The translations under genes were made by a program, and so were the position numbers. Positions 2 through 30,838 of a DNA stretch of 34,508 bases are shown here, piece by piece. Position 1 is the stretch's first letter. The number at the start of each line of letters is the position of its first letter. Source of the DNA: Rhizobium sp. Q54 (GTDB taxonomy: Bacteria > Pseudomonadota > Alphaproteobacteria > UBA828). The stretch lies in contig CAMDDO010000032.1 in assembly GCA_945892755.1 (NCBI GenBank), positions 1-34,508 of the forward strand, read 5' to 3'. Under the pieces are notes generated by a model. The model searched no databases, was not told the DNA's origin, and was given only the letters and a program-made list of their open reading frames with translations.

Positions 2-193
2 GATCCGGAGAACTTCAATTACTGGTGCAGTCCGAAAATCGGCCAGTGCCAGGCCGACGGCCAGTTCAAGATCGTGTTCTCGGCGGAAAAACATGTGCCG
101 CCGGATCCCTTCGCGATCTATCCCGATCGCGGCGTGTGCAAGGTCGACGGCCTGCACAAGACCGATGGCAAGGTCGAGACTGGCGTGCTCTAA
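2..193 (+). CDS. C-terminal end of ABC transporter substrate-binding protein (urea/amide type), partial
   Basis: Only the last 63 codons are in the window; the frame is open from base 2 to the TAA at 191-193. The tail is cysteine-bearing and hydrophilic (NYWCSPKIGQCQADG, then PDRGVCKVDG). Its position directly before two permease and two ATPase genes of the branched-chain amino acid/urea/amide class suggests the periplasmic binding protein of that transporter (UrtA/FmdD type). The fragment itself is too short for a motif-based family call, so the assignment relies mainly on gene order. It would bind the substrate in the periplasm and deliver it to the permeases. The binding-pocket residues that could tell urea from amides lie outside the window. 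Confidence 0.7.
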   Translation, partial: DPENFNYWCSPKIGQCQADGQFKIVFSAEKHVPPDPFAIYPDRGVCKVDGLHKTDGKVETGVL

Positions 194-236: not shown

Positions 237-406
237 GGGTTCGAGGGCACGGCTCCGGGCCCATCACCGGGCGCGGCCGCGCGACTTGGTTGCGAGCAGG
301 GCGGTTTCGTTCTAGAACCCGCTGATACAAAAACGACAGAACAGGCGTCGGGCCATTCAGACAGGCCTTGGCGCCGGCGGTATCGGGAGGGCGGTCGGAC
401 AAGCCC

Positions 407-1312
407 ATGAGTGTCCATGATTTTTGGACCCCGTTTTCGGCGGGGCCGTTCTTCAACGCGCTCTTACTTGGCTTCACGCTGGGCGCCATTTGGCTGTTGG
501 CGGCGCTGGGGCTGACCATCATTTACGGCACCATGGGCGTCATCAATATGGCCCATGGCGAGTTCATCATGGTGGGGGCCTATTTCACCTTCCTGATGCA
601 GACCGAGGCCGGCATCCCTTGGCTCGCCTGCCTGCCGCTTGCCTTCATCGGCGTCGCCATCATCGGCTGGATCGTCGAGCGCTTCTTGATTCGATATTTG
701 TACGCGCGACCATTGGACACGCTGCTCGCGACCTGGGGCGTCTCCCTGGTGCTCATTCAGGGCGTGCGTCTGATCTTCGGCGGCGAGCCGCAATATGTCG
801 CGGTGCAGCCCCATGAGCTCACCCAAAGCGCGGAACTCGGGTTCATCCATATTCCGTGGCTGCGCATTTTCATCCTGGGCGCCACGCTGGCGCTGGCCGC
901 CGGGACCTGGGCGATCCTCTATAAGACCATCTACGGCATTCGCGTGCGCGCGGTGATGCAAAACAAGGAAATGGCGGCGGCCTTCGGGATTAACGCCCAG
1001 CAGGTCTACGGCATGACCTTCGCCTATGGCGCGGGGCTTGCCGGCATCGCGGGCGCCATGTTCGGCGGTTTGAAGACCGTGTTTCCCGATATGGGCCTGG
1101 GTTACATCGTCGAGGCGTTCCTGGTCGTGGTCACCGGCGGCGGGCATTTGTTCGGCAGCATCTATTCAGGCGCGATCCTGGGCGAGCTCAACTCGGTCTT
1201 CTCATACTTCACCAACAGCACCTTCGCGCGCTTCGTGCTCTTCGTGCTGATCGTCGTGTTCTTGCGCTTCTACCCGCAGGGCCTGTTCCCTGAGGCCAAG
1301 GCAAGGCGCTGA
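407..1312 (+). CDS. urtB: Branched-chain amino acid/urea/amide ABC transporter permease, LivH/UrtB type
   Basis: Integral inner-membrane permease of 301 residues, the usual size for LivH/UrtB proteins. It is hydrophobic throughout, with the family signature MGVINMAHGEFIMVGAY near the N-terminus. A cytoplasmic-loop region (GINAQQVYGMTFAYGAGLAG) before the last membrane segments probably contacts the ATPases. The ATG at 407 is preferred over an upstream in-frame TTG at 368, because the extra 13 residues are polar and unlike the family; a GGAGG lies at 386-390. It heads a tight run with the second permease and both ATPases. The dimethylformamidase genes downstream make a small amide a more likely substrate than an amino acid; this is inferred from context. 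Confidence 0.85.
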   Translation: MSVHDFWTPFSAGPFFNALLLGFTLGAIWLLAALGLTIIYGTMGVINMAHGEFIMVGAYFTFLMQTEAGIPWLACLPLAFIGVAIIGWIVERFLIRYLYARPLDTLLATWGVSLVLIQGVRLIFGGEPQYVAVQPHELTQSAELGFIHIPWLRIFILGATLALAAGTWAILYKTIYGIRVRAVMQNKEMAAAFGINAQQVYGMTFAYGAGLAGIAGAMFGGLKTVFPDMGLGYIVEAFLVVVTGGGHLFGSIYSGAILGELNSVFSYFTNSTFARFVLFVLIVVFLRFYPQGLFPEAKARR

Positions 1313-1329
1313 GAGCGAGGATCGCGACG

Positions 1330-2436
1330 ATGACCGGCCAAACCCAGAATCTCTATCACAACAAGGCGGGGCAGTGGCTCTGCTACATCGCGCTGTTCGT
1401 CGTGCTCGCGCTCGTGCCCGTGTTCGGCGCCGAGCCGTTCCAGCTCAACGTCTATTCGCGTTACGCGGTTTACGCGATGCTGGCGGTCTCGGTCAGCATG
1501 GTATGGGGCTTCGGCGGAATCCTGAGTCTCGGTCAGGGCATTCCCTATGGTCTCGCGGCCTATTGCATGGGCGCGACCATGCAGATGCAATATCAGACGC
1601 CGGACGATCCGATTCCGAGCTTCATGCTGACCAACGAGCTGACCGAGCTGCCGGCGGTCTGGGAGCCGTTCTGGAGCACCTCGATCGGCCTGATCCTCGC
1701 GCTCGGCGTGCCGACGCTGATCATGACGATCTTCGGCATTCTGATGTTCCAGGCGCGCCTCGCCGGTGCCTTCGTCGCGATCATGACACTCGCCATCCTG
1801 AACGCGTTCTACAGCATGGCGCAGGACCTTCAGCCCTTTACCGCCGGCTTCAACGGCATTTCGCCGCCCAATCCGTTCACCGCGTTCGGCGTCACGATCG
1901 ATCCCTATAGCGAGATGCTCTATTGGATCAATTTGGGCCTGCTCGCTTTGGTCACCCTGGTCTCGAAATACGTGCTGCAAAGCAAGTTCGGCACCATCGT
2001 GCAGGCGACGCGCGACGACGCCGAGCGCGTGCGCTTCCTGGGCTATAGCGTGTCCTATTTCCAGGTCGTGGTGTTCGTCTTCGCCGGCTTGATCGCGACG
2101 CTCGCCGGCATCGTCTGGGTCATGACCGTGCAATATGTCTCGCCGACCGCGTTCGAGACGCCGTTCAGCATCTACATGGTGATCTGGGCCGCGGTCGGCG
2201 GCCGGCATTCGCTGTTCGGCGCGATCGTCGCGGCCATCGTGCTCAATTATCTTCAGACCGAGCTCGCCGATATCAGCGAGATTTGGCAAAAGGCGTGGCT
2301 GCTCTTGCTCGGCGGCATCTTCATCGCGGTCGTGCTGTTGCTGCCGCGCGGGCTGGCCGGGTTGTTCGAATACCTGCTCGGCTTCATCAAGATCGGCCGG
2401 CGCCAAGCGGCGCCCGGGCGGATCGCGGCGAATTGA
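1330..2436 (+). CDS. urtC: Branched-chain amino acid/urea/amide ABC transporter permease, LivM/UrtC type
   Basis: Second inner-membrane permease, 368 residues, close to typical UrtC length and longer than most LivM proteins. It has many hydrophobic segments, a conserved first-loop motif (WGFGGILSLGQGIPYGLAAY, around residues 58-77), and a cytoplasmic coupling region around QATRDDAERVRFLGYSV. It should pair with the LivH/UrtB-type subunit to form the channel. It starts 17 bp after the preceding stop and ends 10 bp before the first ATPase gene, so all are probably cotranscribed. Family membership is clear; the transported compound is inferred only from the neighbouring dimethylformamidase genes. 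Confidence 0.87.
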   Translation: MTGQTQNLYHNKAGQWLCYIALFVVLALVPVFGAEPFQLNVYSRYAVYAMLAVSVSMVWGFGGILSLGQGIPYGLAAYCMGATMQMQYQTPDDPIPSFMLTNELTELPAVWEPFWSTSIGLILALGVPTLIMTIFGILMFQARLAGAFVAIMTLAILNAFYSMAQDLQPFTAGFNGISPPNPFTAFGVTIDPYSEMLYWINLGLLALVTLVSKYVLQSKFGTIVQATRDDAERVRFLGYSVSYFQVVVFVFAGLIATLAGIVWVMTVQYVSPTAFETPFSIYMVIWAAVGGRHSLFGAIVAAIVLNYLQTELADISEIWQKAWLLLLGGIFIAVVLLLPRGLAGLFEYLLGFIKIGRRQAAPGRIAAN

Positions 2437-2446
2437 CGGGGCCAAG

Positions 2447-3202
2447 ATGGGCGTCTTGCTCGAACTCAAAGATCTGACCAAGGCCTACGACACCTATGCC
2501 GTTGTCGACCGGCTCAATTTGACCATCAACGAGGGCGAGCTGCGCTGCCTGATCGGACCCAACGGCGCCGGCAAGACCACCACGATGGACCTGATCACAG
2601 GGCGCCAGAAGCTGACCGGCGGCAAGGTCATTTTCGATGGGCGCGAAATCAACGGCCTGAAGGAAAATAAGATCGTCCGGCGCGGCATCGGCCGCAAGTT
2701 CCAGGTGCCGGCGGTGTTTAAGGATCTCTCGGTCCGAGAGAATCTCGAGGTCGCGTTCAATCGCAACCCCGACCCGTTCGCCAACATGCTGATGTTCTTT
2801 CGGCGCACCGACAAACAGCGCTTCGATGAGATCGTCGAGCTGATCGGGCTCGGCGAGCGGCTCGGCGAGAAGGCAGGCTTCCTGTCGCACGGCGAAACCC
2901 AATGGCTCGAGATCGGCATGGTGCTGACGCAGAACCCGCGTTTGCTGCTGATGGACGAGCCGACCGCCGGCATGACCGAGCAGGAAACGCTGAAGACCTC
3001 CGAGATCTTCAAGCGGCTGAAAGGCGCGCATACGCTGGTCGTGGTCGAGCACGACATGACCTTCGTGCGCCAGATCGCCGAGACTATTTCGGTGCTTCAC
3101 CTTGGCAAGCTCTTGGCCGAGGGCCCGATGCACCAGATCGAGAACGACCCCAAGGTACGCGAAGTCTATCTCGGCGCGGAGGGCATCTCCGATGCTGCTT
3201 GA
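2447..3202 (+). CDS. urtD: ABC transporter ATPase, LivG/UrtD type
   Basis: Cytoplasmic ATPase of 251 residues. Walker A is GPNGAGKTT; the signature is the unusual LSHGETQWLEIG rather than LSGGQ; Walker B is LLLMDEP; the switch histidine is in VVVEHDM. The HG-x-x-QWLEIGM signature and the GIGRKFQVPAVF segment (in place of the LivG-style ARTFQ) point to the UrtD branch used for urea and short amides rather than to amino-acid LivG proteins. It pairs with the next ATPase to drive import. Its end overlaps the start of the next gene by 11 bp, implying translational coupling. Confidence 0.87.
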   Translation: MGVLLELKDLTKAYDTYAVVDRLNLTINEGELRCLIGPNGAGKTTTMDLITGRQKLTGGKVIFDGREINGLKENKIVRRGIGRKFQVPAVFKDLSVRENLEVAFNRNPDPFANMLMFFRRTDKQRFDEIVELIGLGERLGEKAGFLSHGETQWLEIGMVLTQNPRLLLMDEPTAGMTEQETLKTSEIFKRLKGAHTLVVVEHDMTFVRQIAETISVLHLGKLLAEGPMHQIENDPKVREVYLGAEGISDAA

Positions 3203-3890
3203 GCTGCGCGAGGTCAATTCGTTCTACGGCAACACGCCGATCCTGCGGAATATTTCGTTCGAGCTCGAGCAGGGCCAATGCCTTGCCGTGCTCGGGCGCA
3301 ATGGCGTCGGCAAGACAACCCTGATGCGCACGATCATGGGTCTGACCACGCGCATGACCGGCACGATGTCGATCGCCGGGCACGACGCTTCGAAGATGCC
3401 GACTTACCTTCGCTCGCATGCCGGCCTTGGCTATATCCCGCAAGGGCGCGGCATTCTCGGCAAATTCACGGTGCGCGAGAACATCCTGCTCGGCACCTTC
3501 GCGCGGACCGACAAGCAGGTCGGCATCCCGAAGATGTGCCTCGATCTGTTTCCCTATCTGGCCGAGAACCTGGACAAGCGCGCGGGCCTTCTTTCGGGCG
3601 GTCAGCAGCAGCAATTGTCGATCGCGCGTGCGCTCGCCACCGACCCCAAGGTTCTCTTGCTCGACGAGCCGACCGAGGGCATTCAGCCGAATATCGTGCA
3701 GGAGATCGAGGCGACGCTGCACCGGCTCAACAAAGAGGTCGGCATCACCATGATTCTGACCGAGCAGCACATCAAGGTGGCGCGCGAGTTGGCCGACAAG
3801 TTCATCATCATGGACATCGGGCGCGTCGTGGCCTTGGGCCCGATCGCCGATTTGAGCGATGAGCTGATCGAGGAGCATTTGACGTTGTAG
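3192..3890 (+). CDS. urtE: ABC transporter ATPase, LivF/UrtE type
   Basis: Second ATPase subunit, 232 residues, normal for LivF/UrtE. Walker A is GRNGVGKTT, the signature is LLSGGQQQQLSIARAL, Walker B is VLLLDEPTEG, and the switch histidine is in ILTEQHI. GRNGVGKTT and YIPQGRGIL resemble UrtE proteins. The open frame reaches back to 3102, but that part is a shadow of the previous gene; the ATG at 3192 gives the canonical start (MLLELREVNSFYG). It overlaps the preceding ATPase gene by 11 bp. This completes a transporter placed directly upstream of dimethylformamidase, consistent with uptake of an amide substrate or scavenging of the amide product pool. Confidence 0.87.
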   Translation: MLLELREVNSFYGNTPILRNISFELEQGQCLAVLGRNGVGKTTLMRTIMGLTTRMTGTMSIAGHDASKMPTYLRSHAGLGYIPQGRGILGKFTVRENILLGTFARTDKQVGIPKMCLDLFPYLAENLDKRAGLLSGGQQQQLSIARALATDPKVLLLDEPTEGIQPNIVQEIEATLHRLNKEVGITMILTEQHIKVARELADKFIIMDIGRVVALGPIADLSDELIEEHLTL

Positions 3891-6915: not shown

Positions 6916-6942
6916 GGCTCAGGGCGGCTTTCGCCCTGAGCC
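6916..6942 (+). other. 11-bp hairpin just upstream of the Rieske-like gene
   Basis: GGCTCAGGGCG (6916-6926) and CGCCCTGAGCC (6932-6942) are perfectly complementary around a GCTTT loop. The 3' arm ends directly against the GGGAG (6943-6947) that serves the ATG at 6956. There is no T-tract after it. It could act as a partial terminator, a block to 3'-to-5' decay protecting the dmfA mRNA, or a structure controlling access to the ribosome binding site. Confidence 0.6.
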
Positions 6943-6955
6943 GGGAGCATGGGGA

Positions 6956-8188
6956 ATGTTCGTTCACCCCGAACTGGGCTATTTCGACGAACGCGAGGAT
7001 TTGACCGCGGCGAAACTTTACGCCGCGTCGCGCCTCGCTTTCGGTCGCGCGCGTGCGCTGCCGCCGGTCGCCTACCGCTCCAAGGTGTTCGCCGACCTTG
7101 AAGATGAGAAGATCTGGACCCGCGCCTGGATTTTTGTCGGCGGACACGATCAGATTCCCGAGGCCGGCGACCTACTGCCCTATACCGTCGGGCATCACGG
7201 CATCCATGTGCAGCGACGCGCCGATGGCGGGCTGATCGGGCGCTTCAACAAGGCGCAGCATGGCGGCTGTCGCGCCGTGCCGTTGCAGTGCCAGACCGGC
7301 ATCAAGACCAAATGCTCGTTCACCTCATGCGGCTATAGCCGGGATCGCGACGTGATCCCTTCATTCGAGTTGGGTGAGGAAACGCCCGCGATGCGGCAAT
7401 ATCTCGGTGAGCAGCCGGATCGCCTGCTGAAGGTGCGGGTCGAACGCTTCGGGCCGTTCATCTACGCCAATCTCGACCCAGACGCGGACGGGCTCGAGGC
7501 GCAGCTGGTTTCGATCGGCGATTTGTTGGCGCCCTATGTCGAGGCCAACGCCAAGGGCGTCGCCGGCTTCTGGGCCGAGCACCAGTGCAATTGGAAGCTG
7601 GCCGGCAAGGCGTTTCTCGATCATGCCGGGGCGCCGAACGCCGCGCTCCTGGCGACGGCAACCAAGCGTCGAAGGCCGGCCGTCGCCGATGACGTCGCAT
7701 GGCATGTGCGCCGCACGATCAAGCTGGCCGAAAGCGGCGGCCATGATCTTCCGGTCTTCGCGACACTCGATGACGCGGCGCAGGGCGAGGCGCGCTTCGC
7801 CTGGGCCTTTCCGAATCTCTTGATTGCCGCGCAGCCCGATCATCTGGTGACGATCGGGCTTCAGCCGACGGCGTTCCGCTCGACGCTTTATCGGGTGCGG
7901 CTCTATGTCAGCCCAAGGGCCAAAGGCCTTGGGCCCGGGCATCCGGCCGTGATCAAGCGGCTCGGCTTTTGGCGCGACCTCTTGGCTCACGTCGGCGAAC
8001 GGGCGGTCGCCGAACAGCGCGAGGCCGAGCGCTGGGGCACCCCGTCATGGCCGGAAACCGAGGGCAAGAAGCGCCCGATCGAGACCAGCGAACCTGGCTA
8101 CAGATTGCAGCGTTACTTGATCGATCGCCTGCTCGCCAGGCACGACTATCATTGGGCCGGAGCGATGACCGACGCCCGCGTGCGTTGA
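6956..8188 (+). CDS. Rieske ring-hydroxylating-oxygenase-like protein with degenerate metal sites
   Basis: Predicted 410-residue protein with the layout of a Rieske oxygenase alpha subunit: RAWIFVGGHDQIPEAGD and a VQRRADGGLIGRF strand lead into the [2Fe-2S] region, and CNWKL begins the catalytic domain. The ligands are mostly gone. In the first cluster pair (N-x-C-x-H) Ala100 replaces Cys while His102 remains. In the second (C-P-Y-H) Cys120 remains but Thr123 replaces His. In the iron-site helix (D-x-x-H-x4-H after NWK) Gly225 and Ala230 replace both histidines, and Arg349 appears in place of the usual Asp. Oxygenase activity is therefore unlikely; a structural, regulatory or new catalytic role is possible. 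The frame is open throughout with normal codon use, so it is not an obvious pseudogene. GGGAG at 6943-6947 supports the start. Confidence 0.75.
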   Translation: MFVHPELGYFDEREDLTAAKLYAASRLAFGRARALPPVAYRSKVFADLEDEKIWTRAWIFVGGHDQIPEAGDLLPYTVGHHGIHVQRRADGGLIGRFNKAQHGGCRAVPLQCQTGIKTKCSFTSCGYSRDRDVIPSFELGEETPAMRQYLGEQPDRLLKVRVERFGPFIYANLDPDADGLEAQLVSIGDLLAPYVEANAKGVAGFWAEHQCNWKLAGKAFLDHAGAPNAALLATATKRRRPAVADDVAWHVRRTIKLAESGGHDLPVFATLDDAAQGEARFAWAFPNLLIAAQPDHLVTIGLQPTAFRSTLYRVRLYVSPRAKGLGPGHPAVIKRLGFWRDLLAHVGERAVAEQREAERWGTPSWPETEGKKRPIETSEPGYRLQRYLIDRLLARHDYHWAGAMTDARVR

Positions 8189-8194
8189 GCGGCG

Positions 8195-8500
8195 ATGGTC
8201 TACAGCGTCCAGCAAATCAAATACGAGATGCTTGCCTATATCAAAGAATTCGGCGGCGGCTTCGGCGACTATTATGTCGGCATCGCGGCCGATCCCAAGG
8301 CCGAGCTGTTCAAGCGCCACAAGGTGAACCAGAAGAAGGATCCCTGGCTCTATAAGCAGGCGCTGACCTTCAATGCGGCGCGCACCGTGCAGCGTTATTT
8401 CCTGGAAACGCTCGGCACCGATGGCGAGCCGGTGGTGCGCGGCGATGAAGATACGGATTGCGTCTACGTCTACAAAAAGAGCGAGCGCACCACGCCATGA
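8195..8500 (+). CDS. Small hypothetical protein in the dimethylformamidase locus
   Basis: Predicted 101-residue soluble protein with no signal peptide or membrane segment. The order of elements (DYYVGIAADP, then a basic LFKRH, then ARTVQRYFLETLGTDG and a final VYVYKK strand) is loosely like a small GIY-YIG-type fold, but the diagnostic residues are not clearly present, so no function is assigned. It starts 6 bp after the Rieske-like gene and overlaps the Sel1-repeat gene by 4 bp (ATGA). The three are therefore probably cotranslated and may work together. Confidence 0.7.
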   Translation: MVYSVQQIKYEMLAYIKEFGGGFGDYYVGIAADPKAELFKRHKVNQKKDPWLYKQALTFNAARTVQRYFLETLGTDGEPVVRGDEDTDCVYVYKKSERTTP

Positions 8501-11057: not shown

Positions 11058-12824
11058 CTACGCCGCGCTCTTGCGCATTTCTTTGCGGCGGGCGGCGGTT
11101 GCCACCTCGTCGAGCTCGAGCTTGTCGGTGAGCACCACGCCATAGGCGTCGCGTGCATAGTCCCTGGTGCAGAAGCCATCAAGCACATCATCGCGCACTT
11201 GTGCGGGCGTTCGCTCCAAGGGATCGCCATAGCCGCCGCCATTCGGCGAATAGATCGCGATGCAATCGCCGACGTCGGTTTGCAGGCTCGAAAACTTGGC
11301 CGGCATCGAGGTGATGGCGCGCGGCTTCGCCAGGTTGAAGGTCTCGACCTTGCCGCCGGCGCCGGCATGACCACCCAAGAAGCCCCAAGGCGCGTCATCG
11401 TGCCGGTCGCATTCGTGCGTCATCGACCCCTTGCTCAAGAAGCGCTGCACCTTGACGACACCAAGGCCGCCACGGAATTTGCCAGCGCCTGACGACACGT
11501 CGTCGCGCAATTCATAGCGATCGCAGATCAACGGCAAATGCATGGCGAGGTCTTCGACCGGGTTGTTGCGCGTGTTGCGCATCAGCTCATCGATCGAATC
11601 CGGCCCGTCAGAAAACGGTCGCCCGCCATAGGCGCCCTCATTGACCTCGAGGAAGACCCAATAATCGCCGCTCGGGCGCACGCCCGAATAGGCCGCGAAG
11701 GAAAGCGTCGCCGAACTGCCCGCGACCACGCGCTCCGGGATCACCGGCGCCAAGGCCTTGATGATCAGATCGACAATACGCTGGCACTGGCCGAAGCGCG
11801 CCTCGGCGGCGGCCGGAAAGATCGGGTTGAAGATCGAGCCCTTCGGCGCGATGACATTGATCGGGCGGAACGAGCCTTCGTTCTGCGGCACGTATTCCTC
11901 GGTCGTCGCGGTATCCAGCAGCAGCGCGCGGAACGCGAAATAGCACGCCACCTTGGTCGAGCCCTCGAACGGCACGTTGAACGCGGTCGGCACTTGCGGC
12001 GAGGAGCCCGTTAGATCGACTTCCGCCGAGTCGCCCTTGATCCTGACCGTGACCTTGACCGGCAGCGGTTTGTTGCGCGTGCGGCCATCATCATCGAGAA
12101 AACCCTCGGCGCGATATTCGCCGTCCGGAATCTCGGCGATGCGCTTCCTGAGCATGGTCTCCGAGTAATCCATCAATTGGCGCGTCGCCTGCTCGACGGT
12201 CTCTTTGCCATATTCGCCGAGCAATTCCTTGAAGCGCCGCACGCCAAGGCGCGCCGAGGCCACTTGCGCCTCGATGTCGCCCATCACCAGCGAGGGCACG
12301 CGCGTGTTGGTCTCGATGAACTGCCACATCGCCCTGTTGAGCTTGCCTTCTTCATAGAGCTTGATGCCCTTGAACAGCATGCCCTCGGCATAGACGTCGG
12401 GCACGTCGATGATCAGGCCGGGCGTCGCCGCGCCGATATCGACATGGTGCGCGGTATTGCCGGCGAAGCCGACCAGCTCGCCCTCATGGAACACGGGCGA
12501 GATCACCGCGATGTCGGGCGAGTGGCTCGCGCCATGATAGGGGTGGTTGTGCAGCACGACGTCGCCCTCTTTCCAGGGGTCGTGCAGCGTTTTTTCGATG
12601 CCGCGCAAATAGGCCGGAATCGAGCCGATGTGCATCGGCGTCGAATCAGATTCGCACAGCGTGTTGAAGTGCTTGTCGAACAGGCCGGCGCCGAGATCTT
12701 GCGATTCGCGGATGATCGAGGAATAGGACATCCGATAAAGAACGTGGCCCATCTCCTTCGCGATGGTGTCGAGCGCGCCGCCGATCACCTGGAGCGTGAT
12801 CGGGTCGATGGCGTTGCGGGTCAT
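11058..12824 (-). CDS. hyuB: Hydantoinase B/oxoprolinase family protein
   Basis: Predicted 588-residue HyuB-type subunit, full length for the family. The N-terminus (IDPITLQVIGGALDTIAKEMGHVL) is the usual HyuB opening; HNHPYHGASHSPD carries the conserved metal-binding histidines, and GGGYGDPLERTP lies near the C-terminus. HyuA/HyuB pairs perform ATP-dependent hydrolysis of cyclic amides (N-methylhydantoin, 5-oxoproline) or, in relatives, carboxylation. It begins 2 bp after the hyuA stop, so the two are coupled. A role with the dimethylformamidase locus in amide catabolism is possible but unproven; the substrate cannot be read from sequence. Confidence 0.88.
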   Translation of the reverse strand: MTRNAIDPITLQVIGGALDTIAKEMGHVLYRMSYSSIIRESQDLGAGLFDKHFNTLCESDSTPMHIGSIPAYLRGIEKTLHDPWKEGDVVLHNHPYHGASHSPDIAVISPVFHEGELVGFAGNTAHHVDIGAATPGLIIDVPDVYAEGMLFKGIKLYEEGKLNRAMWQFIETNTRVPSLVMGDIEAQVASARLGVRRFKELLGEYGKETVEQATRQLMDYSETMLRKRIAEIPDGEYRAEGFLDDDGRTRNKPLPVKVTVRIKGDSAEVDLTGSSPQVPTAFNVPFEGSTKVACYFAFRALLLDTATTEEYVPQNEGSFRPINVIAPKGSIFNPIFPAAAEARFGQCQRIVDLIIKALAPVIPERVVAGSSATLSFAAYSGVRPSGDYWVFLEVNEGAYGGRPFSDGPDSIDELMRNTRNNPVEDLAMHLPLICDRYELRDDVSSGAGKFRGGLGVVKVQRFLSKGSMTHECDRHDDAPWGFLGGHAGAGGKVETFNLAKPRAITSMPAKFSSLQTDVGDCIAIYSPNGGGYGDPLERTPAQVRDDVLDGFCTRDYARDAYGVVLTDKLELDEVATAARRKEMRKSAA

Positions 12825-12826
12825 CT

Positions 12827-14914
12827 CTATGCCCTCTCGCGAACGTGGAGATTGCCGGATTGGTGAATGTTGCCGACCCAGCCCGGCGGGATCAAGGTGG
12901 TGGAATCGGTCTGCACGACGATCGCCGGCCCGTCGATGACGTGACCCGCCAAGAGCTTGGTGCGCGCGAAGCGCGGGGTCTCATGCGTCGTGCCGTCGTC
13001 AAAGATGGTCCGCCGCGCATAGAGCCACGCATTCTTAGGGTCGGCATCGGCGGATGAGCCCAGCGTCGGCCAAACGACCGGTTCTTCGGGCACGCGGGCC
13101 ACAACCCGAAGCGTGATCAACTCGACGTCCTGGTCCTCGAAGGCATGGCCATAAACCTGGCGGTGCTCCTTGTGGAAATTGCCGAGGACGATGTTGCGGC
13201 TTTCGAGCGTCAGGCGCTCGGCCGGCATTTCGGCTCTCAGCTCGAAGCCTTGGCCGACATAGCGGCATTCGGCGATCCGAACGAAACGCTGTAGCGCCTT
13301 CGGCACGCCATCGGCCTCGAGCGCGGCGCCGGCCTGGGCGGTCAGCTCATCGAGGCGCTTGTTGACGCGGTCGAGCCCGGCCTGGTCGGCCTTGGTCAGC
13401 ACGCTGAGCGAGGCGCCGGCAAACTCATATTGCATGTCGGTCGCCAAGAGGCCGATCGCGGCTTGGATGCCGGGCGCCGGCGGCACGATGACCTCCTTGG
13501 CCGAGACGGTCTTGGCGAGCGCCGCGCCGTGCAAGGGTCCGGCGCCGCCGAACGGCATCAGCGCGTAGCGCCTGGGGTCGACGCCCTTCGCCACCGAATT
13601 GGCGCGGATCGAGAGCGCCATGTTGGAATTGACCACGCGAATGATGCCAAGGGCCGCTTCGATCACACTCACGCCAAGCTTCGGGCAGAGTTTGGTCTCG
13701 ATCGCCTTGCGCGCGAGCGCCGGGTCGATCTTCACGCCGCCGCCGAGGAAGTGTTCGGGGTCGAGCCGGCCGAGCACGATCTGCGCGTCGGTCACGGTCG
13801 GCTCCAGGCCGCCACGGCCATAGCAGGCGGGGCCAGGGTCGGCGCCGGCCGAGCGCGGACCGACGCGGAACGCACCGCCCTCATCGACATAGGCGATCGA
13901 GCCTCCGCCCGCGCCGATGGTATCGATGTCGAGCATGGGCGCCAGCACCGGATAGCCGTTGACCTGGGTATCGCGCGGGTTCATGACGCGGAGCCGCCCG
14001 TCCGGGATCACGCTGATATCGGCCGAGGTGCCGCCGATATCGACCGTGATGGCGTTGCTCTCGCCCGACATCAGCCCGGCCCAGCGGCCACCGATCACGC
14101 CGCCCGCCGGCCCCGACATCAAAATCGTCACGGCGTGCTTGGCCGCGTTCTCGAGCGTTGTGACTCCGCCATTCGACTGCATGACGCGAATCTGCGCGCC
14201 GATGCCCTTGGCACGCAGCGCGCTTTGCAGCCGGTTCAAGTAACCCGCGACACGGGGGCCGACAAAGGCGTTCATGGCCGTGGTCGAAAAGCGCTCATAT
14301 TCGCGGATCACGTCGACAACCTCGTGCGAGGCCTCGACATAAAGCCCCGGCAGCATCTCCTTGACGATCGCCTTGGCGCGCTTCTCGTGCGCGTTGTTCA
14401 GGAACGAGAACAGGAAACAAACGATGACAGCCTCGACGCCCTGGGCCTGCAACAGAGCCGCCGCTTCGCGCACTTCGCTCTCGGCCAAGGGCGTCACGAT
14501 CTCGCCGGTGGGCGGCAGGATGCGCTCGGTGATCGGCACGCGGTTGCGTCGCTTGACCAAGGGCTTCGATTGCCATGGCACGTCGAATTGCATCGAGAAG
14601 TTTTGCGGACGCTTGTGACGCGCCATGTGCAGAATGTCGCGAAAGCCGCGCGTGGTCAGCATGCCGACTTCGGCACCGTCATATTGGAGGATGGTATTGG
14701 TCGCGATCGTCGTGCCATGCACGATGAGCTTGAGCTCGGCCGGCTCGATGCCGCCGATCTTGCACAATTCGACGACGCCGGTGACCACGCCTTCCGACTG
14801 GTCCGCGGGCGTGCTCGGTACCTTGTGAACGAAGACCTTGCGCGCGGCGCCTTGGCCGACCTCGAGAATGAAATCGGTGAACGTGCCGCCGACGTCGACG
14901 CCGATTTTTGCCAT
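12827..14914 (-). CDS. hyuA: Hydantoinase A/oxoprolinase family protein
   Basis: Predicted 695-residue HyuA-type subunit with an actin-like ATPase fold. Phosphate-binding motifs are IGVDVGGTFTDF at the N-terminus and AITVDIGGTSADIS in the middle; GAGGGSIAYVDEGG and GADPGPACYGRGG are further family signatures. It would phosphorylate the substrate amide for hydrolysis with HyuB. The ATG at 14914 is preferred to the TTG at 14941, since the glycine-rich motif normally starts a few residues in; a weak GGGTCGGA precedes it. The substrate is unknown: N-methylhydantoin, oxoproline or another lactam or amide. Confidence 0.88.
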   Translation of the reverse strand: MAKIGVDVGGTFTDFILEVGQGAARKVFVHKVPSTPADQSEGVVTGVVELCKIGGIEPAELKLIVHGTTIATNTILQYDGAEVGMLTTRGFRDILHMARHKRPQNFSMQFDVPWQSKPLVKRRNRVPITERILPPTGEIVTPLAESEVREAAALLQAQGVEAVIVCFLFSFLNNAHEKRAKAIVKEMLPGLYVEASHEVVDVIREYERFSTTAMNAFVGPRVAGYLNRLQSALRAKGIGAQIRVMQSNGGVTTLENAAKHAVTILMSGPAGGVIGGRWAGLMSGESNAITVDIGGTSADISVIPDGRLRVMNPRDTQVNGYPVLAPMLDIDTIGAGGGSIAYVDEGGAFRVGPRSAGADPGPACYGRGGLEPTVTDAQIVLGRLDPEHFLGGGVKIDPALARKAIETKLCPKLGVSVIEAALGIIRVVNSNMALSIRANSVAKGVDPRRYALMPFGGAGPLHGAALAKTVSAKEVIVPPAPGIQAAIGLLATDMQYEFAGASLSVLTKADQAGLDRVNKRLDELTAQAGAALEADGVPKALQRFVRIAECRYVGQGFELRAEMPAERLTLESRNIVLGNFHKEHRQVYGHAFEDQDVELITLRVVARVPEEPVVWPTLGSSADADPKNAWLYARRTIFDDGTTHETPRFARTKLLAGHVIDGPAIVVQTDSTTLIPPGWVGNIHQSGNLHVRERA

Positions 14915-15001
14915 GACAATCCGACCCGTGGTTTCAACCAAAATCCGGCTCGGACGATAGGGCAGCGCCGGCGGCCGGGCAACAAGGCACGGCCGCGCCG
15001 C

Positions 15002-27519: not shown

Positions 27520-28758
27520 ATGAATCTTCTCGGGTTCGCCGCTGCGGCAAGCGAGAAGGGTGATGCGGTTGGCGCCGAGCGCTTAGTGCGGGCCGTGCTT
27601 GCCGCGCAGCCTGACGATATTGCGGCGCATTTTCTGCTTGGCGTCATATCGCTCAAGGCCAGGCGTGATCATGAGGCCGAGGCGGCTTGTCGCGCCGCGC
27701 TTCGATTGGCGCCGGGCTTTGCCGCCGCGCAGACCAATCTAGGCACGGCGCTCAAGCGTCTCGATCGGCTCGACGAGGCGGTTGCGTGTTTTCGTCAGGC
27801 AACCGCCCTATTGCGCGGCACGAAGCCCCACGAAGGCGTGCTGATCGAACCGGGCCAAGCGGAGACCTTTCGCATTGCCGCGCCGATCAAGCTCCAGCAC
27901 GACATCGAGCAGTTCGACTATTTGATTGAGCGGGGCGCGCTGCCGCGATCTTTCTCCGCGACGATCGACGCTTATCGGGCGGTGCTCGGTGAGCTTGATG
28001 ATGGCAATGCCACGCTCTCTCAGAGGCTCAGCCCGGACCAGCTCGACCGCATCGGTGCGACCTATAATCGGCTGGTCTATCGGCCGCCCGATGAGCACGT
28101 TTCGCCTTGTCTCAATCCGAGGCTCGCTGCCGAGCGCATCGAGGCGGATTATTTTGACAGCTCGCCCCATGTCGTGGTGGTCGACGAGCTATTGAGCAAT
28201 GACGCGCTCGGCGCGCTGCGTCGGTTTGCTCTCGAAGCGTCGATCTGGTTCGACTGCAAACAGGCCGGCGGCTATCTCGGCGCCTATTTGCATGATGGTT
28301 TCGATGCGCCGGTGCTGATCCGCCTCGCGCACGAACTGCGCGCGCGGCTGCCTCGTCTGCTGGGAACTCACCCGCTCGCCCAGGCCTGGGCCTTCAAGTA
28401 CGCGCCTGGCGGCACCGGCACGCGCCCGCACGCGGATGAGGCCGCGCTCAACATCAATATCTGGATCACGCCCGATGAGGCGCGGCGCGCTGGTGAATCC
28501 GGCGGCCTCCGCCTTCATGACGCCACCGTGCCGGAGGGCTGGTCGTTTGATGACTATAACCGTGAGCCCGAAGCCATGCGGGCGCTGCTCTCCGCCAAGC
28601 GGGCCCGGCCGATCGATGTGGCCTATCGCTGCAATCGCGCGGTGATTTTCGATTCGTGCTTGATTCACGAAACCCTTCCGTATGACTTTGGCTCGACCTA
28701 TGCCGATCGCAGGGTCAATGTGACCCTGCTTTATGGCGCGCGACCGCATGGTGCATGA
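27520..28758 (+). CDS. TPR protein with C-terminal 2-oxoglutarate/Fe(II)-oxygenase-like domain
   Basis: Predicted 412-residue protein with two parts. Residues 1-100 contain about two or three tetratricopeptide repeats (for example HEAEAACRAALRLAPGFAAAQTNLGTAL). Residues about 215-408 resemble a 2OG-Fe(II) oxygenase: His304-x-Asp306 in TRPHADEA, distal His383 in CLIHETLP and Arg398 in DRRVNVTLLYG, spaced as in prolyl-hydroxylase-like enzymes. Expected chemistry is hydroxylation of a protein or small molecule with 2-oxoglutarate, O2 and Fe(II). TPR fusions often act on proteins or peptidyl substrates. It starts 3 bp after the MmgE/PrpD stop. The ligand assignment is by pattern only. Confidence 0.78.
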   Translation: MNLLGFAAAASEKGDAVGAERLVRAVLAAQPDDIAAHFLLGVISLKARRDHEAEAACRAALRLAPGFAAAQTNLGTALKRLDRLDEAVACFRQATALLRGTKPHEGVLIEPGQAETFRIAAPIKLQHDIEQFDYLIERGALPRSFSATIDAYRAVLGELDDGNATLSQRLSPDQLDRIGATYNRLVYRPPDEHVSPCLNPRLAAERIEADYFDSSPHVVVVDELLSNDALGALRRFALEASIWFDCKQAGGYLGAYLHDGFDAPVLIRLAHELRARLPRLLGTHPLAQAWAFKYAPGGTGTRPHADEAALNINIWITPDEARRAGESGGLRLHDATVPEGWSFDDYNREPEAMRALLSAKRARPIDVAYRCNRAVIFDSCLIHETLPYDFGSTYADRRVNVTLLYGARPHGA

Positions 28759-28765
28759 GGAGCGG

Positions 28766-30838
28766 ATGGCCTATCGCATCGCCGTCGATACGGGAGGCAC
28801 CTTTACCGACGTCGTGGTGGCCGACACTGAGGGCCAGCTCGCGCTCGGAAAGGCCTTGACCACGCCGGGGCGGAGCTTCGGCGGGCTCTCCGAGGCGCTG
28901 CGCGATGCCGCGCGCAATATGGGCATCGCCTATGAGGCGCTGGTGCAAGGCGCCGATGTGCTGATCTATGGCACGACGCGCGCGACCAACGCGATCGTCC
29001 AAGCCAAAGTCGCGAAAACCGGATTCCTGGTCACGGCCGGTTTCCCCGACATTCTGGTCTATCGCCAAGGCGGCAAGCTGAACGCGATGCAATTGGACAT
29101 CGACCTTCCGCCGCCCTATGTGCCGCGCCGGCTCACCTGTCAGGTCAGGGAGCGCATCGACGCCGAGGGCGGCATCGTGACGCCGCTCGATGAAGACGAT
29201 CTCAAGGTTCAGTTGGAGCGCTTGAAGAAAAAGAACGTCGAGGCGATTGCGGTCTGTCTTCTGTGGTCGATCGTCAATCCGGACCATGAATTGAAAGTGG
29301 GCGAATGGATCGAGCGCGTGCTGCCCGGGCTGCCCTACACACTCTCGCACCAATTGAACCCAATCATCCGCGAATACCCACGCGCGTCCTCCACCGCGAT
29401 CGACGCGTCGCTCAAGCCGCTGATGCAGGAGCATCTGAAGGGCCTGCGCGACGATCTCAAAGCGGCCGGCTTTGGCGGCGAGCTCTTGATCTCGACCTCT
29501 GGCGGCGGCGTCATGCATGTCGAGGATCTGATCTTGCGGCCGATTCACATGGTCAAGTCGGGCCCTGCCATGGCGCCGCTCGCGGGCATCTCCTACGCCG
29601 ATGCCGAGGGACTGGGCAAAGACGTCATCGTGGTCGACAGTGGCGGCACCACGTTTGATGTGAGCCTCGTGCGCGGCGGTCAGGTCAAATACACGCGCGA
29701 GACTTGGCTCGGGCCGATGTACACCGGCCACAATCTCGGCATGGCATCGGTCGACGTGCGGAGCGTCGGTGCCGGCGGCGGCTCGATCGCCTGGATCGAT
29801 TCGGGCGGGCTGCTTCGCGTCGGGCCCTTGAGCGCGGGCTCGGAGCCGGGCCCCGCCTGTTATGGGCGCGGCGGCGTGGCGCCGACCGTGACCGACGCGG
29901 CGGTCGTGCTCGGCCATGTCGACCCTGCGCACTTTCTCGGAGGGCGGATGCGGCTTGATGGCGACGCCGCGGTCAAGGCCGTTACGTGCATCGCCGAGCG
30001 CATCGGAAAATCGCTCGATGAAACCGCCGCCGCGATCGTCACGCTCTCAAGCGAAACCATGATCGCGGCGATTCAGGACATCACCGTGAATGACGGCGTC
30101 AATCCGCGCGAGAGCCTCTTGGTCGCGGGTGGCGGCGCGGCCGGGTTGAACATTCTTCCGATCGCCAGCGCGCTCGGTTGCGATCGCGTGCTCCTGCCGC
30201 GCACGGCGGGCGCGCTCTCGGCCTGCGGCGCGCAGTTTTCCGATATCGTCGCCGAGTTCAGCCAATCGCGTTACGCGCATACCGGCTTCTTCGATTTCGC
30301 CGCGGTCGACGCCGCGCTCGATAGCATCGAGCGCAAGATCGAGGGCTTCGAGCGCGAGCTTGAGGCGCGTGGCATCACGCGCTTCCGCCGCGACTACTTT
30401 GTCGAGGCGCGCTACCTCGCGCAGCAATGGGAGATGGAGATTCCGTCCCCGGTTCGTCGCTTCAAAACGCCCGCCGATGTCGAAACGCTGCGCGCGCATT
30501 TCAATGAGATTCACGAGCGGCTTTATGCGGTGAAGGATCCTGCCTCGCACCTCGAGTGCATGAACTGGAAAGGCCGTCTTACCGCCACGCTCGCAAAGCC
30601 CAGACTCAATCCCGAGCCGGCGGGCCTCGCACATGCGCCCAAGCCGGCGCGCCAGGCCCATGCCTATTTCTCGGGGCTGGGCCGAGTCGCGACGCCGATC
30701 TATGATGGCCCCGCGCTCGCGACGGCGGCGCGCATCGAGGGGCCGGCGATCATCGAGGAGCCGACCACGACGATCGTGATCTATCCCGGCATGCGGGCCG
30801 AAGTGACGCCGCTCCACAATTATCTGTTGGTGCCATGA
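28766..30838 (+). CDS. Hydantoinase A/oxoprolinase family protein, not next to a HyuB
   Basis: Predicted 690-residue HyuA-type protein. It shows IAVDTGGTFTDVVVADTEG near the N-terminus, VIVVDSGGTTFDVSLVRGG in the middle, and GAGGGSIAWIDSGG with GSEPGPACYGRGG. These nucleotide-binding motifs are intact. Unlike the 12827-14914 homologue it has no hyuB next to it; the partner may lie elsewhere, or this HyuA acts alone or with a different subunit. The ATG at 28766 has AGGAG 3 nt before it; an ATG at 28748 would overlap the preceding gene by 11 bp and is possible. Its end overlaps the sulfurtransferase gene by 4 bp. Confidence 0.85.
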   Translation: MAYRIAVDTGGTFTDVVVADTEGQLALGKALTTPGRSFGGLSEALRDAARNMGIAYEALVQGADVLIYGTTRATNAIVQAKVAKTGFLVTAGFPDILVYRQGGKLNAMQLDIDLPPPYVPRRLTCQVRERIDAEGGIVTPLDEDDLKVQLERLKKKNVEAIAVCLLWSIVNPDHELKVGEWIERVLPGLPYTLSHQLNPIIREYPRASSTAIDASLKPLMQEHLKGLRDDLKAAGFGGELLISTSGGGVMHVEDLILRPIHMVKSGPAMAPLAGISYADAEGLGKDVIVVDSGGTTFDVSLVRGGQVKYTRETWLGPMYTGHNLGMASVDVRSVGAGGGSIAWIDSGGLLRVGPLSAGSEPGPACYGRGGVAPTVTDAAVVLGHVDPAHFLGGRMRLDGDAAVKAVTCIAERIGKSLDETAAAIVTLSSETMIAAIQDITVNDGVNPRESLLVAGGGAAGLNILPIASALGCDRVLLPRTAGALSACGAQFSDIVAEFSQSRYAHTGFFDFAAVDAALDSIERKIEGFERELEARGITRFRRDYFVEARYLAQQWEMEIPSPVRRFKTPADVETLRAHFNEIHERLYAVKDPASHLECMNWKGRLTATLAKPRLNPEPAGLAHAPKPARQAHAYFSGLGRVATPIYDGPALATAARIEGPAIIEEPTTTIVIYPGMRAEVTPLHNYLLVP

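Follow-up and report, generated by a model that had tools for sequence, protein, structure and literature searches.

What does a protein do that keeps the fold of a Rieske oxygenase alpha subunit, has lost the canonical ligands of both metal centres and is encoded directly behind a dimethylformamidase-like enzyme? This question is raised by a gene, here called X, in a stretch of 34,508 nucleotides from Rhizobium sp. Q54 (contig CAMDDO010000032.1 of assembly GCA_945892755.1), the whole of which is referred to as the window. Two metal centres are the hallmark of Rieske oxygenases, and a family in which the Rieske scaffold was kept, both centres were gone and a new invariant ligand set had appeared would be a clear natural example of metal-site rewiring. 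The original prediction held that selection keeps X without the ancestral chemistry, in a new role connected with amide metabolism. The features of the locus are collected in Table 1.

Table 1. Features of the X locus in the window, with positions counted from the first letter of the window.
Feature	Position	Strand	Basis or remark
Transporter substrate-binding protein, C-terminal end	2..190	+	cut by contig end
Branched-chain/urea/amide-type ABC transporter	368..3890	+	Pfam and synteny
Transporter permeases	368-1312, 1330-2436	+	
Transporter ATPases	2447-3202, 3192-3890	+	
dmfA1-like small subunit (A1), 154 aa	3919..4383	+	in 74/76 loci
dmfA2-like large subunit (A2), 799 aa	4489..6888	+	Pfam, 6lvb match, alignment
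RNA hairpin in dmfA2-X spacer, perfect 11-bp stem, without U-run	6916..6942	+	folding
X, Rieske-oxygenase-fold protein, 410 aa	6956..8188	+	ORF, phmmer, Pfam, alignment, AlphaFold2, VIA-align
Putative rewired cluster loop of X, codons for residues 96-130	7241..7345	+	alignment: 18/35 columns invariant, 68 sequences
Y, 101 aa, no known family	8195..8500	+	in 75/76 loci
Sel1-repeat protein, 239 aa	8497..9216	+	in 76/76 loci

Results and discussion

The open reading frame of X is unbroken from the ATG at 6956 through 410 codons to the stop ending at 8188, as had been stated before. The Pfam analysis assigned Ring_hydroxyl_A to the product at 37.7 bits (cut-off 24.9), and no Rieske-domain Pfam match was obtained in X. 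Residues 29-225 were aligned by phmmer with biphenyl dioxygenase 1uli (3.4e-14), and in the comparison with sequences of solved structures biphenyl dioxygenase and other Rieske alpha subunits matched residues 29-232. The AlphaFold2 model, which was computed from 68 family sequences, reached a pLDDT of 87.2 and a pTM of 0.89, and both of its domains were superposed on Rieske oxygenase alpha subunits by Foldseek and VIA-align; the VIA-align match to 3n0q had a Z of 28.2 and an rmsd of 3.9 over 336 residues, covering model residues 11-398, and that to 3eqq a Z of 27.4. X is therefore predicted, on the strength of this model, to have the two-domain alpha-subunit fold with a Rieske domain and a helix-grip catalytic domain, and the preserved scaffold of the original prediction was confirmed. 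The likeness to biphenyl and toluene dioxygenases, stachydrine demethylase and the carnitine monooxygenase CntA extends over residues 11-398 (Z 24-28), the sequence similarity lies in the Rieske half, and the NWK motif is retained.

Unlike these alpha subunits, X lacks both canonical metal sites. In the alignment with the canonical Rieske proteins of the same genome, X has A100-x-H102...C120-x2-T123 where these proteins have C-x-H...C-x2-H, and A100 and T123 are common to all 80 aligned family sequences. The iron ligands D-x2-H-x4-H are absent after N212-W213-K214, where G225 and A230 are present, and the columns 222, 225, 230 and 349, which would hold the facial triad of the mononuclear iron (D-x2-H-x4-5-H...D), are variable and contain no His/His/Asp set. 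All seven residues that had been named beforehand (A100, H102, C120, T123, G225, A230 and R349) were found to be correct. R349, which had been given as an iron-site residue, sits in a freely variable column, so that the third iron-ligand position is ill-defined. Intact ligands hidden by misalignment were considered and discarded, as MAFFT with the genome's canonical Rieske proteins and phmmer to 1uli agree on the register, and as the nearest non-family proteins in an HMM control carry intact motifs. When 385 genomes of the class were searched with a profile, members of the X family scored 469-502 bits and the next matches at most 120 bits. All of these next matches have an intact C-x-H/C-x2-H, and no intermediates with partial ligands were found among the 385 genomes. 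By fold and ancestry X is a member of the Rieske oxygenase alpha-subunit superfamily, but it should not be called an oxygenase because the residues that define either metal centre are missing from it.

The loss of the old ligands is accompanied by a new set of residues. H102, C105, C112, C120 and C125, together with the upstream H81 and H84, are invariant in the 80 family sequences, as are R106, Q111, S128 and D130 in the loop, whose family pattern reads A-Q-H-G-G-C-R-x2-P-x-Q-C-x2-G ... C ... T-x-C-G-x-S-x-D. C105, C112 and C125 match no canonical Rieske ligand position. The loop (residues 96-130) is the best-conserved part of X, with a mean entropy of 0.43 bits as compared to 2.3-2.6 bits in the C-terminal domain. 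The diverged X of Paracoccus aminophilus pAMI5 reads V-x-H...C-x2-L instead of C-x-H...C-x2-H, the abandoned positions having turned to V and L with every residue of the new set retained. As read from the alignments, then, X has both lost the old ligands and fixed a new residue set; a rewired metal or thiol site in this loop is likely, and we infer from the sequences that the new residues may bind a metal. The earlier statement that both metal centres are lacking holds for the canonical centres and overlooked this set: C120 had been noted merely as a leftover ligand, the invariance of C105, C112, C125, H81 and H84 had been missed, and the view that the metal chemistry of X was simply lost is not supported now that the cluster loop proves to contain a new invariant Cys/His set.

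The nature of such a site can be read in more than one way, since the former cluster loop has a pLDDT of just 65-72 in the AlphaFold2 model and the invariant cysteines could form disulfides, bind zinc or make up a thiol active site rather than hold iron. Rieske electron-transfer proteins of the bc1 type carry C-T-H-L-G-C...C-P-C-H-G-S with a disulfide. X lacks the first Cys and the second His of this motif, and its sole match is the Cys three positions after the His; this position, C105, we take to be that of the disulfide Cys of the bc1-type proteins. X could accordingly be a structural protein, a zinc-binding or disulfide-bonded scaffold in which four cysteines steady the loop and which aids folding or the formation of multimers but handles neither electrons nor iron, and the freely variable C-terminal domain would agree with this. 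We regard it as unlikely, because the 18 invariant positions among the 35 of the loop, including H102, R106, Q111, S128 and D130, exceed a plain structural need, and because disulfides are rare in the cytoplasm, the probable location of the X family.

With X as the sole query, a scan of GTDB genomes retrieved 76 loci in alpha-, beta- and gammaproteobacteria, with Hyphomicrobium, Methylobacterium, Methylorubrum, Methylopila, Hansschlegelia, Ancylobacter, Xanthobacter, Methylocella, Rhodopseudomonas, Bradyrhizobium, Mesorhizobium, Methyloversatilis, Stutzerimonas and uncultured alpha- and gammaproteobacteria as hosts; these loci are mutually related and do not count as 76 independent trials. Family members are 328-415 aa long, many of them shortened. 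The dN/dS of X against its two nearest orthologs was 0.124 and 0.179, and within the loop it was 0.027-0.039. Virus-borne relatives of X were not found in IMG/VR, and no description of the family was found in the open-licence literature, to which the search was limited. The missing ligands of both metal centres might suggest that X is the functionless, decaying remnant of a Rieske oxygenase gene that lies beside dmfA2 by chance, but this reading is rejected and has practically no probability left in view of the dN/dS of 0.12-0.18, the loop that is invariant in 80 sequences and the co-location in 76/76 loci across three classes. Judged by its sequences, X is a conserved family under selection and not a product of decay, because 80 sequences share the change, the dN/dS is low and the loop is the best-conserved part; the expectation that selection keeps the protein without its ancestral chemistry was thus upheld, and the window does not hold an isolated decayed copy.

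The gene directly upstream of X, on the same strand, is dmfA2 in 76/76 loci. As X, not DmfA2, was the query that retrieved these loci, the association is not built into the search. DmfA2 relatives occur at about 88 places in 22 genomes of the order; X adjoins 16/16 of those that are at least 79% identical to that of the window, and none of the remoter paralogues in these 22 genomes has X beside it. In a phylum-wide sample, a DmfA2 relative of 76% identity is accompanied by X and all others, at most 47% identical, are not. The X-bearing DmfA2s (at least 72% identity) are monophyletic in a tree of 55 sequences with a support of 100/100, on a long stem of 1.14 changes per site and with one change of state; some remote paralogues form long branches in this tree, and the support of the X group is still full. 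Outside this clade lie the validated dimethylformamidase (DMFase) of pAMI2 and the copy on the plasmid of Methylobacterium DM1. For the genomes covered, these comparisons show a one-to-one genomic link of X to one DmfA2 clade, in that X is found with every DmfA2 of 72% or higher identity to the window's and with no remoter paralogue. The DmfA2 family is strongly expanded in this order, and the window's own genome has at least four more DmfA2-like genes of 39-47% identity, none with X (contigs C75, C1 and C25 of G000). A DmfA2 fragment of 68% identity, located on a contig of its own (G009:C315), probably represents the remaining half of a split gene.

The DmfA2 of the window matches parDMFase (6lvb) at 4.9e-152 and is about 38-39% identical to the validated DMFase of pAMI2, so that the earlier label dimethylformamidase is loose for this neighbour, which has the DmfA2 fold and belongs to a separate clade. 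Y407, Y447 and E529 of the window take the places of the DMFase iron ligands Y399, Y440 and E521, and H527 that of H519 close by; they are present in 32/32 X-clade members and invariant in both groups. The X clade differs close to the iron. His530, next to the iron ligand E529, is found in 32/32 members where 23/23 others have Tyr, and Asp555 is found in 32/32 members where 21/23 others have Asn, so that Asp replaces the oxyanion residue N547, which was shown to be essential in DMFase by mutagenesis (PMC7686228). These altered residues suggest a different chemistry or substrate.

They also bear on the main rival of the reading preferred below, namely that X joins the enzyme as a third, stoichiometric subunit or as a partner in electron transfer, in which an Fe-S cluster at the rewired site reduces or oxidises the DmfA2 iron and the chemistry is redox-assisted or redox-regulated rather than plain hydrolysis. 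The appearance of X at the base of one DmfA2 clade, its constant adjacency and the altered residues His530 and Asp555, the latter at the essential Asn547 (PMC7686228), are in keeping with this, as is the ancestry of Rieske folds as electron carriers. X is, however, the least conserved protein of the set (42.5% median identity), which is odd for a subunit that is tightly bound; neither a reductase nor a ferredoxin gene is a constant neighbour in the 76 loci, although reductases can lie elsewhere, and no change is seen in the three iron ligands from the protein or in the His close to them. We therefore consider it rather improbable, and the purely structural Cys site ranks next after it.

Paracoccus aminophilus carries both kinds of DmfA2. 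No X lies beside the DMFase of pAMI2 or that of pLVM1, nor are Y and Sel1 found beside the validated DMFases. On the chromid pAMI5 a second dmfA1-dmfA2 locus (JCM7686_pAMI5p063-064), which belongs to the same clade as that of the window and whose DmfA2 is 72% identical to the window's, is followed by X and Y. This X-type operon (L098, 8502-13325) includes a two-component system, a urea/amide binding protein and an AmiS/UreI channel; unlike the window locus, it adjoins this AmiS/UreI transporter and has no Sel1 gene. Its X is annotated as 'biphenyl 2,3-dioxygenase', a label that would mislead pathway predictions. A strain cured of pAMI2 was unable to use DMF, and the pAMI5 copy is reported to be unlinked to DMF use (PMC4543880), for which reason the substrate of the X-clade enzyme is probably not DMF.

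The genes of the block are arranged as A1-A2-X-Sel1-Y or A1-A2-X-Y-Sel1, the latter in the window, and fusions of X with A2, Y or Sel1 were not found in the loci. In about 52 loci the block is preceded by a five-gene ABC transporter consisting of a Peripla_BP_5-type urea/amide binding protein, two permeases and two ATPases; the remnant of the binding protein in the window is about 59% identical to a Hyphomicrobium Peripla_BP_5 protein. The model of Y is a compact alpha/beta structure with a pLDDT of 95.9; Y has no Pfam family, and its fold search against the PDB returned no match better than E 0.4. The median identity to the window is 76% for A2, 70% for A1, 57% for Y, 56% for Sel1 and 42.5% for X. 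The hairpin between dmfA2 and X has a folding energy of -34.9 kcal/mol (z -3.2) and, lacking a U-run, it is not called a terminator. Hairpins with z < -2 occur in 39/61 dmfA2-X spacers as compared to 12/72 A1-A2 spacers; strong ones are also found in 11/24 T2-A1 spacers, and the dmfA2-X hairpins of the relatives differ in sequence.

Because X recurs beside dmfA2 in every relative examined, as had been proposed for checking, its role points to the DmfA2 enzyme. Each of the roles listed earlier (chaperone, subunit, iron delivery, regulator) may still apply, with the balance of evidence on the side of accessory or maturation work. Our preferred reading, to which we give a probability of roughly 0.4, is that X serves one clade of DmfA1A2-like iron hydrolases as a dedicated accessory or maturation protein. 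It is favoured because X evolves fastest in the block (42.5% against 76% for A2 and 70% for A1), because it occurs together with a Sel1-repeat protein and a small protein, a frequent situation among assembly factors, and because the recurrent dmfA2-X hairpin would allow unequal levels of A2 and X. Sel1-repeat proteins often act as adaptors or in assembly. X would have descended from a Rieske oxygenase alpha subunit, the C-terminal domain having lost its iron site and now varying freely, and the tip of the N-terminal domain, the old seat of the [2Fe-2S] cluster, having become a new Cys/His site of C105, C112, C120, C125 and H102, possibly with H81/H84. Iron or an Fe-S cluster would be bound at this site, X would deliver iron to the Tyr2-Glu iron centre of DmfA1A2 or set its redox state, and X, the Sel1-repeat protein and Y would together help to assemble or mature DmfA1A2. 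In this reading the target of X would be DmfA1A2 and not the substrate, and its action may be maturation. Several points speak against it. The parDMFase made in Escherichia coli was active, apparently without accessory proteins, so that the fold does not generally need a maturation factor (PMC7686228); the pAMI5 operon without Sel1 indicates that the supposed assembly set is not fixed; and it is gene order that connects X with DmfA1A2 as an interacting pair.

A more specific form of the accessory reading, which we put forward with greater reserve, is that the Rieske fold has been re-engineered for a non-Rieske metallocentre, an Fe-S or mononuclear metal site formed by C105, C112, C120, C125 and His, and serves a hydrolase of the DMFase fold as a dedicated iron-delivery or redox partner. 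If this is true, both a new cofactor site and a new maturation or redox system for Tyr2-Glu iron enzymes would have been found. X might instead be an enzyme itself, whose new site would use thiol or metal chemistry on a product or substrate of the DmfA1A2-like enzyme, since the dense invariant patch of polar and Cys/His residues could be an active site in an operon that is catabolic in layout and has its own transporter. We think this quite improbable: the domain of the former substrate pocket is the most variable and often shortened (328-415 aa), and to our knowledge no known catalytic motif fits X.

Precedents among the known systems are Rieske oxygenases whose metal centres are divided between or missing from the subunits of a complex, such as NdmC in the NdmCDE complex, a caffeine N-demethylase (PMC4408171), and the CAO of Micromonas, which consists of two chains (PMC9615114). 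Those complexes keep both centres and stay oxygenases, whereas X keeps neither centre and is paired with a hydrolase whose fold is unrelated. Oxygenase partner genes, as would suit a Rieske alpha subunit, were not seen with X, which is always found with DmfA1A2; that partner has the parDMFase fold, the Tyr2-Glu iron ligands and the nearby His. The X-bearing loci mark out a sub-group of DMFase-like iron enzymes that is common in methylotrophs and has its own accessory genes and transporter.

Judging from the type of transporter and from the urease, amidase and sarcosine-oxidase genes nearby, the X-clade enzyme probably acts on a small amide or urea, perhaps an N-methylated one. Dimethylglycine/sarcosine oxidase-like genes lie near the operon in 6 loci and a CN-hydrolase gene in 4, and an amidase gene and, in pAMI5, AmiS/UreI are further neighbours. 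Urea itself is made less likely as the substrate, as the window's genome also carries two ureases, yet 19/76 loci are near urease genes. In these 19 loci (L051, L053, L054, L057, L067, L069, L072, L079, L080 and L086-L095), which belong to several families, ureC, ureG or ureD lies within about 8 kb downstream of the operon. A HyuB/HyuA pair of the hydantoinase/oxoprolinase family is found near the operon of the window at 11061-14941 on the minus strand, and a second HyuA at 28733-30835 on the plus strand. The pAMI5 locus also has hydantoinase fragments, which hints at a hydantoin or N-methyl amide theme.
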